From Candidatus Microgenomates bacterium (GTDB taxonomy: Bacteria > Patescibacteriota > Microgenomatia > UBA1406 > GWC2-37-13): DNA of 48,731 nt. Below, in pieces: positions 18,058 through 23,699 of the stretch. The DNA lies in assembly GCA_023245215.1 (NCBI GenBank), contig JAHFKS010000004.1:1-48731 (forward strand), written 5' to 3'. Within the stretch, counting starts at the first letter, position 1. Each line of letters opens with the position of its first letter. Under the pieces are notes generated by a model, which was given only the letters and a program-made list of their open reading frames with translations, did no database searches and had not been told where the DNA came from. A program made the translations under genes and the position numbers.

Positions 18058-18641
18058 GGAGTCGGAGTCAGTTTTTTTAGGCAGACAAAGTAATCTTGTG
18101 TGGAACAACCCTTACCCAGTTTATTTTTGATTGCCGTGCAGTCTGTCTCGTTACAGGAGGTATTGTCGGAAATCTGCAGCCTTTGCACCGGCGTAGGCTG
18201 AGTGGTGGTCACGGTTGCAGCTTGTGTCGGCGTCACCGTGGGTACGACTACTGATTTTTCTACTCCTTTAGTCGTAAATGTCCAAGGAACGCCGCCGTTG
18301 TCATACTTTTTATCGCCTACCCGTACGTCAAAATAATAAGTCGTGGAAGGCGAAAGGAGCGTCAAATCAAGAGAATGTGATTTTCCCTTGGTTGCTTCCG
18401 GGGCAAAAAAATTCAAAGCAGTCGGGCTGGTTCCGTATTCGACAACTGCTTGGGTCTCAACCCCGGTCGCCCAAGACAACTTGGCGGAATTTTTTTCAAT
18501 CGTGGAAACAACAACGTCCTGCGGTTCAAGATCAGCTGCCCTGGTGCCGAAAATTCTAAATGCGAAAAAGGCCAAAAGAAGAAAAACAACTACGCCAATT
18601 GTTATTGCAGCAATTTTTGTTACTTTAGGATTATTAAACAT
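18054..18641 (-). CDS. membrane-anchored fibronectin type III-like domain protein
   Basis: N-term TM; VVVSTIEKNSAKLSWATGVETQAVVEYGTSP...LLSPSTTYYFDVRVGD; Thr/Pro linker; Cys-containing tail. Confidence 0.75.
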   Translation of the reverse strand: MFNNPKVTKIAAITIGVVVFLLLAFFAFRIFGTRAADLEPQDVVVSTIEKNSAKLSWATGVETQAVVEYGTSPTALNFFAPEATKGKSHSLDLTLLSPSTTYYFDVRVGDKKYDNGGVPWTFTTKGVEKSVVVPTVTPTQAATVTTTQPTPVQRLQISDNTSCNETDCTAIKNKLGKGCSTQDYFVCLKKLTPTP

Positions 18642-19288
18642 TAGAGTACGAATCTTAAAATACTGCCCATTAATAATAATATCATCCCCGGTACAGCAAA
18701 TTTTACCACATTGTCAAAAACGCCGCTTACAGGCAATGTTCCCGATGTAGGTGCCGGTGTCGCTGTCGCACCAGATGAGCTTCCCGCTCCTATGGTTACG
18801 GTACTGCTGCCATTTTGGCTACAGTTTAAAACGTTGGTGGCATTGATGTCATTTTTGACTACTTTGGATGAATTGCAGTCAAAAGACAATGTAACAGTGG
18901 CTTCTTTTAGAGCTTGGAATGTAATTGTGGCTAAGGTTCCTGAAGTCGAGATTGACGAAGCAGCATCGTTGACCAAACCGGCGATATAGACTTTTCCGCT
19001 CGTTGAAATGTCATTGGTGACTGTCGGGAAAAGGCTGCCGGCGGTTACTGTCGTCGGCTTGAGGGCTGTTGCATCGTAAGTGATATAGACATCTGTCGAA
19101 CTGACGTTATCGGGTGACGGATCCACCGTTACGGCAATCTGGAATGTGCCCCCGTTGCTGACTGAAACCGTTCCTTTGTCAAACTTCAAAGACGCTGCCC
19201 AGGACAGTTTAAAATATGGGCCGACAAAGAAAAAAATCATCAGCATCGATATTAATATAGATATTTTTTTCATAAATATATTCCTCAT
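18641..19288 (-). CDS. cohesin-domain-like surface protein
   Basis: Signal peptide; FQIAVTVDPSPDNVSSTDVYITYDATALKPTTVTAGSLFP..GTLATITFQAL; C-term LPVSGVFDNVVKFAVPGMILLLMGSILRFVL. Confidence 0.78.
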   Translation of the reverse strand: MRNIFMKKISILISMLMIFFFVGPYFKLSWAASLKFDKGTVSVSNGGTFQIAVTVDPSPDNVSSTDVYITYDATALKPTTVTAGSLFPTVTNDISTSGKVYIAGLVNDAASSISTSGTLATITFQALKEATVTLSFDCNSSKVVKNDINATNVLNCSQNGSSTVTIGAGSSSGATATPAPTSGTLPVSGVFDNVVKFAVPGMILLLMGSILRFVL

Positions 19289-19873: not shown

Positions 19874-21841
19874 TTATTGTTCGTCTGTCCTGGCGGCCAA
19901 AGCTGCCAAAATTAACGAGAAATCTTGGGTATCGACTACTCCGTCGCGGTTTAGGTCGGCTTTCGCCAAAATTGCGGCGTCTTTTTTACCGAGGTTGTTT
20001 TTTACCAGGCCGAAGTCAACTGAATCAACCAATCCGTTTTGGTCAAGGTCGCCGACCAGTAAAGTTACTTTGGTAAAATCTAAACTGTTTTCTCCAACAG
20101 CTAGGGTTATATTTCCATCGCTGCAGCTGTACCTTCCGCCTGCTGTTTCCGACGGCGCGCTGTCGCAGATTTTTTTCTGGAGGTGTTGAGGACCCTTGAC
20201 ATAGACCAGCCATTTTCCGGAAACGTCAGTAATATTAAAGCCTACCTGACCTGTCCAAACGCCATCGGCGTCGGCGGCAAATGTTCCCTGGGAATCAACT
20301 GTATTGGTGGTGCCTTCTTTTTTCAATTTCACTTTTACAATCATAGAATTCTGGCTGTCGGCTGGTTTTTTTCCGATGCCTTGGAATTTAAGCTTCATAT
20401 TTAATTTAACATTACCTGTTACCGTACCCGTCATGGTGATAATTGTTGGTGTAAGGCTATTTGTTGGGTTCACTACCGCAGCACAAGCTAGATTAAAGTT
20501 GTCGAGTTTAGCCGTCACTTGAGGATAGTCTGATTCAAAAGAACCCGCTGAAATCGACAATTTGACCGGAACGCTGGCAACATTATTAAAAGCCTTGAGG
20601 AGTTTATATCCTTGTCCGTCGCTAATATCATAAAAAACGCTTGCGACTGTACCGGCTCTTTGTATTTTTACTTTTACCAGTGAATTGGCAGACAAACCAA
20701 GGTTAGCCGTAGCCTGATCAACAGGATTTCCTGTTCCTAATGTATTAGTAGCTAATAAAGAGCCGCTCCCTACTTTACGCATTACACTAATAATATTATT
20801 AGTCGCGCTTGGCTCGACCGGCGCCATACTAAAAACCATATTCGCGCTCGAACTACTGATAGTTGAAACTAAGGATTTTAATAATACTTCAGCAGAAAAA
20901 TCACCATTGCTCGAATTTTTTGTCACCAGATAATAAGTCTTTGCCTGTCCTTGGACACCATTGACTGCAATAGTAGCTTCACCGCTAGCGACTGTAACAC
21001 CTCCGGTAACGGTACCACTTCCAGTACTGGTTACATCCCAATTATTTTGATTTAAACCTGAATTGATTTTATCTGTCCCGCCAACTACACATATTCCCGA
21101 GGCATCTGCTCCAGAAGAATGAGTCGTGCCATCAGCATACTGGCAGACAAATCCTGTCGGACAAATCAAACCCTGAATACCGCCGCACTGTGCGGCTGCA
21201 CCAGGTTGAACAGCGGGTTGAATGGCTGTTGTGGAAAAATCGTCGCTGAAACTTGTGCAAGCAGCTGCTGCTGACCCGCCATTTATTTTTAAGTCAGGAA
21301 CTGCTGTAATAAAACTTGTTGAAAGCGTACCATCTGGCGCCTGAGTGTAAAAAGCAGCATTATCTCCAAATACCGTCGTTCCTGTTGCCGAAACTGCTGT
21401 AAAAACCAAGCGGACAAGGTCTATTGTCGAAGATGAACTGGTAATCAAAGGCGAGCTGTTCTGAATTTCTCCTTGGAGATTGATTACGCCTGTCTGATTT
21501 ACCTGCGCCAAGGTGCCGCTCGAATCACCAAGGTCAGTGCTATAAACACCGATTTTGTAGTCAACATACTTTGCCTGCAAAACGGTTTTATCAAATTTAA
21601 GCCTTAATGAATAGCCGCGAAGCGAAACATCAAGAGAAGGCTTCATTCTGACAAAAACGGTGAAATCCTGGCCGGCTGCAGCCGTCACTGGAGAAGGATC
21701 ATAAGAAACTTCAATAGTTTCCCCACCTGCTTTGGATTTTTGGGCGGTTTTTCCTGTCAAAAAGAGATAGTTAAGTGCCCAAAAAACAGCAACAACAGTT
21801 ACTAAAAAAATTATTGCTATTTTAAAAATATCTTTTTTCAT
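19874..21841 (-). CDS. cohesin-like + dockerin-like multidomain secreted protein, 655 aa
   Basis: N-term cohesin-like (FTVFVRMKPSLDVSLRGYSLRLKFDKTVLQAKYVDYKIG..), C-term dockerin VGDLDQNGLVDSVDFGLVKNNLGKKDAAILAKADLNRDGVVDTQDFSLILAAL. Confidence 0.82.
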   Translation of the reverse strand: MKKDIFKIAIIFLVTVVAVFWALNYLFLTGKTAQKSKAGGETIEVSYDPSPVTAAAGQDFTVFVRMKPSLDVSLRGYSLRLKFDKTVLQAKYVDYKIGVYSTDLGDSSGTLAQVNQTGVINLQGEIQNSSPLITSSSSTIDLVRLVFTAVSATGTTVFGDNAAFYTQAPDGTLSTSFITAVPDLKINGGSAAAACTSFSDDFSTTAIQPAVQPGAAAQCGGIQGLICPTGFVCQYADGTTHSSGADASGICVVGGTDKINSGLNQNNWDVTSTGSGTVTGGVTVASGEATIAVNGVQGQAKTYYLVTKNSSNGDFSAEVLLKSLVSTISSSSANMVFSMAPVEPSATNNIISVMRKVGSGSLLATNTLGTGNPVDQATANLGLSANSLVKVKIQRAGTVASVFYDISDGQGYKLLKAFNNVASVPVKLSISAGSFESDYPQVTAKLDNFNLACAAVVNPTNSLTPTIITMTGTVTGNVKLNMKLKFQGIGKKPADSQNSMIVKVKLKKEGTTNTVDSQGTFAADADGVWTGQVGFNITDVSGKWLVYVKGPQHLQKKICDSAPSETAGGRYSCSDGNITLAVGENSLDFTKVTLLVGDLDQNGLVDSVDFGLVKNNLGKKDAAILAKADLNRDGVVDTQDFSLILAALAARTDEQ

Positions 21842-21844
21842 ATT

Positions 21845-23406
21845 TTATGGTTTGAGAGTTTTAATCAATATCGCTCTGTCTATGCTACTGATAAAACCGT
21901 CTCCGTTAAGGTCAATATTTACCGATGGCGGCAATTTTGCGCCAAAAATGGCGGCAACATAGTAGAAATAGTCGAGTATATTAACTTTGCCGTCACCGTT
22001 GGCATCGCCTTTTGTCCTTAGATAATTGCGACACCATTGAGTTTTATTAGTCGTTGTCGGAACGCTTGAAAAAATATTGCTTCCCAAGCTGCATTTTATG
22101 GGTGAATTATAAACAACTCCTGTTGGATATTTGTCAAAAAAACAAGCCGTGGCGCAGGTATCACCGGTTGCGCAGACGCAGGCCGGGTTTGGAGTCGGCG
22201 TCGGATCTATCGTGTTGACATTAAAATTAACCGTGCATTTATCATCTTGTTTCGAGACTTTAGCCGCGGTATCCGTGAAATATACTTCAACCCGGACTCT
22301 TTTTGGCTTGGGCATGTAATTTGTCCAGTTTAAGTCATTCTTATTTAATATTTCAAAAGGAATCGGTAGAACATCATTATCAGTTGTTATCGTATAAGGA
22401 TCGATTAATTCATACGGGACATTGGCCGTAAACCAAATTGGTTTAGGTTTTTGCTGGGCGTCTAAATTGTCAAGGTTAAATAATTTATAGGAAAATTTGG
22501 CAATATCTTTAGTATTAGCTGTTGCCGACAAAGTCAAGGTACCTCCTGTATCAAGAAGAGTGTTTGATACTGTCAATGCTTTGCAATAATTTTCTCCACC
22601 CGGTGTTGTTGTTTGTGTTGTCGTTGTGACTTCAGTAGTGGTCGTAGTAGCTGTGGTAGTAACCGTCGTTCCTCCACCCCCACCTGCGTCGTCCCCGCCT
22701 CCACTCTTAACTCTACCTCCACAATCGCCATCGCAAGTTACATATTTACCGCCTGCCTCATTATACTCAGTACCGGCATTAGCATTTCCTACAGTTGTGA
22801 CAGCACCATGACTGCCTGCAGGAGCACCCGCAGCGACAGGTCCTTCGTAAATAGTATTTTTTTTGTTATGAGCTAAATAGGAATCGGCAAAAAAATTATT
22901 ATTTTTTGAAACTTCTTTTAAGTTATATGTTTGAACTCGCCCCGGTTTATATTCCATTGAAACAATCTCCACATATTCTCCTTTATCGTTAAAAACTGTG
23001 TCCCCAATCATTAATCTTCCTACTTTAAATCCTGGCATTTCTTGAATAGTACTTTGAGGATCAACTGCTTTCCAACCTTCTTTTGTATATAAAGGGTGTT
23101 CTCTTGTTAAACTCAAAGTAGAACCGTCAATAAATCTCAATATATACAAATGATCTCTTATTGGAGAATCTAATTGTAAAACAGTTTCCGCAGTCATTTT
23201 TTTTCCGTCATAACCAATTACTTTATCACCAACTTTAACTTCCTCAATATTTTTTTGCGATCTGTCAGACATGAGGATTTTGGTTCCGGCAGGAAAACAG
23301 GTCCAACCATGTGAACCATCATTGTTATGCCAGGCAAAAACAGAAGGAGAAAATTTTATTAGAAAAATTAAAAAAATACAGTAATTATTAAAAATATTTT
23401 CTTCAT
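21845..23406 (-). CDS. secreted Hint (intein-like) domain + dockerin protein, with an apparent frameshift near the 5' end
   Basis: ORF track starts at 23272 (MSDRSQKN). Upstream in the same frame: FLIFLIKFSPSVFAWHNNDGSHGWTCFPAGTKIL; an ATG at 23406 gives MKKIFLIITVFF then hits a stop caused by an A7 run (+ strand 23370-23376). TREHPLY and ADSYLAHNK Hint motifs; C-term dockerin GDANGDGKVNILDYFYYVAAI..DLNGDGFISSIDRAIL. Confidence 0.8.
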
Positions 23407-23699
23407 ATCACTTTTAAAAGTCTAAACATTAAAAAACTGACAAAATAAAATAAAACGACTTGGAAAACCGGTAAATAAAGAGACAAAAATATCGTCAAAA
23501 TGGCCAGAATGAAAAAGGCTTCGTTGTGAATTGAAGGAAGAAGGCCTTTTGTCATCAGCATCAATATAACTAATGTCAAAAGAGCCCGCTTGTCAAACCA
23601 CCACAAAGGCCAGCCGAAATACCAAGCCAAACCCAAAAGAATGGCGGCCAAAACTAAAAAGATTTCTTTAGTATCTAAATAAAACGGTCCGATATACAT
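23403..23699 (-). CDS. small membrane protein
   Basis: Hydrophobic 98-aa ORF; stop codon overlaps the 23406 ATG (ATGA) of the Hint gene. Confidence 0.6.
   Translation of the reverse strand: MYIGPFYLDTKEIFLVLAAILLGLAWYFGWPLWWFDKRALLTLVILMLMTKGLLPSIHNEAFFILAILTIFLSLYLPVFQVVLFYFVSFLMFRLLKVI

Follow-up and report, generated by a model that had tools for sequence, protein, structure and literature searches.

A probable exported Hint-dockerin protein gene with its start called 45 codons late at a T7 frame offset in a Candidatus Microgenomates genome

The window, meaning here the whole stretch of 48,731 nucleotides analysed from a Candidatus Microgenomates bacterium (contig JAHFKS010000004.1), contains a Hint-dockerin gene on the reverse strand, placed behind a conserved gene for a small membrane protein and ahead of genes with cohesin domains. 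The features are listed in Table 1, and the sequences analysed were the frames as they are present in the window.

Table 1. Features of the Hint-dockerin gene and its neighbours, with positions in the window.
Feature	Position	Strand	Remarks
Conserved 98-aa membrane-protein gene, upstream	23403..23699	-	Its stop codon and the true start overlap as ATGA
Coupled start ATG and first 12 signal-peptide codons (MKKIFLIITVFF)	23371..23406	-	In-frame TAA at 23368-23370
T7 run (A7 on +), meeting point of the two frames	23370..23376	-	
Remaining signal peptide in the Hint frame	23333..23371	-	End SVFA, likely signal peptidase site
N-extein, WHNNDGSHGWT (11 residues)	23300..23332	-	From signal peptide to Cys1
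Hint domain	22865..23299	-	Cys1 23297-23299; TREH 23096-23107; His-Asn 22865-22870; +1 Lys
Mechanical ORF call of the Hint-dockerin gene	21845-23272	-	Starts MSDRSQ
ATG where the mechanical ORF call begins	23270..23272	-	Inside the Hint domain; true start elsewhere
Low-complexity linker, Gly/Thr-rich	22586..22705	-	
Stalk	22013..22600	-	Conserved in same-genus positional orthologs
Type I dockerin domain	21854..22012	-	
Next gene, cohesin and dockerin protein	19874..21841	-	Possible partner
Cohesin protein with sortase-like C-terminus (TLPVSG and hydrophobic tail)	18641..19288	-	Possible surface anchor; by inspection

We found that the frame of the called ORF extends 45 codons upstream and stays open to 23407, so that the -1 frame from 23407 to 21845 (reverse strand) comprises 520 codons with zero stops. 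Upstream of 23272 this open Hint frame was searched for ATG, GTG and TTG and none is present, which is why the ORF list begins at 23272; ATT, the sole alternative codon there, is an improbable start. The upstream part reads FLIFLIKFSPSVFAWHNNDGSHGWT, followed by CFPAGTKILM, the first Hint block. The arrangement goes beyond chance: with the upstream part included, Hom_end_hint (PF05203) rose from 21.4 to 39.3 bits and the score of Hint (PF01079), 21.2 bits before, to 34.7 bits, each profile then exceeding its cut-off. A protein begun at the called start, 23272, lacks the export signal as well as the catalytic Cys1 and would pass for a cytoplasmic, Cys-less Hint fragment.

The ATG at 23406-23404 (reverse strand) overlaps the TGA of the 98-aa gene as ATGA and encodes MKKIFLIITVFF before reaching TAA, just as the initial annotation had described. 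That annotation had also placed a single frame break in the A7 run of the forward strand; its coordinates are correct, the two frames meet in this run, and no other stop occurs over about 508 codons. It had further regarded the MSDRS start as mis-called inside a Hint domain, with the end of a signal peptide and block A (CFPAGTKI) upstream of the ORF. This view is borne out by the open upstream frame, the rise of the profile scores and the use of the coupled ATG by relatives, and block A aligns with 13 relatives. Among the homologs compared, none was found to start at MSDRS without block A; the positional relatives start at the coupled ATG, in frame. We read this as one gene, running from about 23406 to 21845 on the reverse strand, and would extend its call to 23406, adding a note of the frameshift.

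The identical ATGA-coupled start, in frame, was found in five genomes of the family (G025, G026, G017, G027 and G053), and signal peptides were intact in all eight same-genus positional neighbours examined, which makes the ATG at 23406 very probably the ancestral start. In the best-matching relative (G025) the signal peptide contains a longer T run and the frame is open. The stalk and dockerin together showed about 51-57% identity to the three closest same-genus positional orthologs (G025, G028 and G020). The dockerin proteins at this operon position in G025, G028, G020, G027, G017 and G019 share with the window gene the neighbour gene, the start region and the conserved dockerin tail, but their N-terminal parts differ from species to species (Cys-rich, Gly-rich or other) and their frames are intact. 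A Hint domain was looked for in the positional neighbours and none carries one, which marks the Hint, by this comparison, as a species-specific N-terminal module apparently gained on a conserved dockerin gene. More widely, the gene that follows the 98-aa membrane protein in many genomes of the family (L122-L131 and others) encodes a secreted protein whose N-terminus varies greatly, and a dockerin tail is frequent within the genus.

The catalytic residues of the Hint domain, namely Cys1, TREH and the C-terminal His-Asn, are all present in the alignment with 13 relatives. Type A BILs are defined by His-Asn ends, and BILs generally have no nucleophile at +1 (PMC4031507). In the window Hint the N-terminal nucleophile opens CFPAGTKI at 23299, the TxxH of block B is TREH (its His invariant across the alignment and its Thr nearly invariant), the domain ends in His-Asn, and +1 is Lys. 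After Cys1 the order is TREH (block B), a YNL block, the final His-Asn, Lys, the Gly/Thr-rich linker, the stalk and the type I dockerin, the last scoring 36.6 bits against a cut-off of 22.9 (PF00404). By every sequence criterion tested, the window Hint reads as a type A BIL.

The structure model of the Hint region had a mean pLDDT of 83, and ranks 1-5 of its Foldseek search were solved structures of BIL domains, the best PDB fold matches being 6y75/6tmm (E 2e-12 to 5e-12) and 2lwy (E 1.9e-9). These BILs, from Tetrahymena BUBL1 (BIL2, 6y75/6tmm) and Clostridium thermocellum (2lwy), resemble the window Hint in Cys1, TxxH, the His-Asn end, the fold and the absence of Cys/Ser/Thr at +1. Unlike them, the window Hint is separated from a signal peptide by no more than an 11-residue N-extein, shares its protein with a dockerin, and has an insertion of about 14 residues after the TREH block.

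Three other identities of the domain were considered. A canonical intein was ruled out, as +1 is Lys rather than Cys/Ser/Thr and the host is a variable surface protein, not a conserved housekeeping gene. A Hog domain of the Hedgehog type is C-terminal, has a sterol-recognition part and has no downstream extein; it was also ruled out, the window Hint being N-terminal with about 340 residues downstream. A polymorphic toxin with a pretoxin Hint was rejected on 24.4 bits against a cut-off of 27.7 (PF07591) and on the C-terminus, which is a dockerin. Type A BILs are able to splice, though cleavage dominates (PMC4031507), and, judging from its residues and predicted fold, the window Hint would probably sever its link with the dockerin stalk once the protein is exported.

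In a tree of 31 Hint domains the window Hint grouped, with moderate support (91/75), with the exported Hint proteins L053, L037, L062 and L059 of the class. Like the predicted window protein, these are exported, have a Hint ending in HN-K and carry a long extracellular part after it; two of them have Ser1, none is at the operon position of the window gene, and in the parts available no dockerin was seen. The two with Ser in place of Cys1 (L037 and L053) belong to the same genus (G015), have long extracellular tails and both run off contig ends; this replacement indicates that nucleophile use varies among related Hints, a point against the reading preferred below.

Several other Hint proteins were observed. 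In many genomes of the class, alpha-2-macroglobulin-like proteins (L060, L061, L064-L076 and L078-L083, at about 1501-1900 per locus) contain a complete Hint (Cys1...VHN) that follows the bait-region domain (PF07703), precedes the A2M domain (PF00207) and is flanked by GGG and KG, an arrangement checked with Pfam in three of about 20 loci. Our literature search found no paper linking a Hint domain with alpha-2-macroglobulin, and a self-cleaving domain, set beside the protease bait or replacing it, would make the trap work by a new mechanism. L032-L035 and L038 are small Hint proteins (about 185-200 aa) that are rich in lysine at the N-terminus, lack an obvious signal peptide and end almost directly behind the closing His-Asn or His-Ser. 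Apparently ordinary inteins were found in relatives of the window genome, one in a replicative DNA helicase-like protein (L039, G075) and another in a SufB-like protein (L026, G057).

The genome encodes three dockerins, all of them in the window, three cohesins, of which two are in the window, and three sortases. We infer from this that the proteins likely form a small cohesin-dockerin assembly at the cell surface, on which the Hint-dockerin gene would display its variable N-terminal module.

The frame offset was compared with the homopolymer background of the genome. In a tblastn scan of 125 proteins orthologous with G025 (median identity about 73%), covering about 98 kb of aligned coding DNA, all 243 A/T runs of at least seven were in frame, which limits the per-run error rate of the assembly to less than about 1.2% (95% limit, rule of three). 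Two candidates for a frame change elsewhere in the genome were rejected, their extensions running into noncoding or tRNA-overlapping DNA. Within signal peptides this tblastn scan has little power and could miss breaks; a separate scan for start-less upstream extensions with a signal peptide and domain sequence, covering the 293 ORFs of 120 aa or more in 332 kb of the genome, found only the window gene. With 243 runs in frame and a lone start-less extension, a systematic error problem in the assembly is unlikely. T runs of at least seven also occur within the first 75 nt of 25 of the 85 genes with a signal-peptide-like or membrane start, therefore the T7 is an ordinary product of the Phe/Leu-rich signal peptides of this genome, and the Hint-dockerin gene itself has five further A/T runs of 7-8, all in frame. 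Given this background and the in-frame runs, no argument is left that the T7 run is special, and the offset is taken as incidental, caused by a rare consensus error or by replication slippage in the recent past, and not as a dedicated switch.

The initial annotation had offered two causes, a sequencing or assembly indel and a homopolymer phase switch, of which the switch is not supported; the indel stands as a candidate beside a real, recent slippage mutation. A one-base indel in a homopolymer is a classic type of sequencing and assembly error. If the offset is an artefact at this run, the living genome would have a single open frame, in keeping with the intact remainder of the gene and the intact genes of all positional relatives. 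We regard such an artefact as a credible cause, at somewhat less than an even chance, as the low per-run error rate and the absence of any other break among the 243 runs weigh against it.

The apparently low indel content of the assembly speaks for a real, recent slippage deletion, in which case the surface protein would be non-essential and its allele in the sampled strain a loss-of-function or revertible one. The N-terminus of this gene changes fast between species, so the module may be dispensable, and since there is no second lesion, any mutation is young. An error is an equally simple explanation, and the deletion is held tentatively, as a slightly less probable cause.

It is unlikely that a real break is bypassed to give some full-length protein, whether RNA polymerase slips on the T run or the ribosome shifts by -1 at UUU-UUU-UAA. 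From the sequence, U7 would let the P-site tRNA re-pair perfectly one base back, the downstream frame is well kept, and slippage rescue of genes has been described in AT-rich symbionts (PMC3017870). But a run of seven is short, no relative examined retains such a break, and a transcriptome-wide study detected no transcription errors that restored a frame (PMC5574713). The RNA fold downstream of the site is no better than that of shuffles (z -0.94), by which structured programmed frameshifting was rejected.

Phase variation, in which the T run would act as an on-off switch for export of the Hint-dockerin protein, fits a one-base offset that lies within a surface protein's signal peptide, but it is very improbable, as the tract is neither longer than nor distinct from the genome background set by those 25 of 85 starts, is one of several such runs in the gene, with five other A/T runs of 7-8, and is not conserved across positional orthologs. 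Taken more broadly, we think it quite unlikely that the T run truly controls a self-cleaving, exported Hint-dockerin protein, be it on/off or by dosage, through slippage of DNA or of RNA or ribosome; if it were true, the cell would vary which module its cohesin scaffold displays.

The reading that we prefer, and hold with good confidence, is one gene for a Sec-exported, probably self-cleaving and cohesin-docking surface protein, split by an incidental single-base offset (error or slippage) at the T7 run. Its product would be ordered as signal peptide, 11-residue N-extein, type A BIL-like Hint, linker, stalk and dockerin. In the assembled sequence the offset inside the signal peptide splits the gene, and thereby put the called start 45 codons late. 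Translated in a single frame, this product would be exported by Sec and cut by signal peptidase after SVFA. Cys1 of the Hint would form a thioester, the Hint would cleave after its final Asn and part from the dockerin stalk, and the freed stalk may dock on the cohesins encoded in the same operon.

The frame break is less a biological discovery than a warning on how genes are called in genome assemblies. For the biology of these bacteria, a conserved dockerin gene in these small genomes exchanges its N-terminal module between species, and once this module is a complete type A BIL-like Hint. If the Hint works, segments displayed on the surface would be freed or ligated after export.
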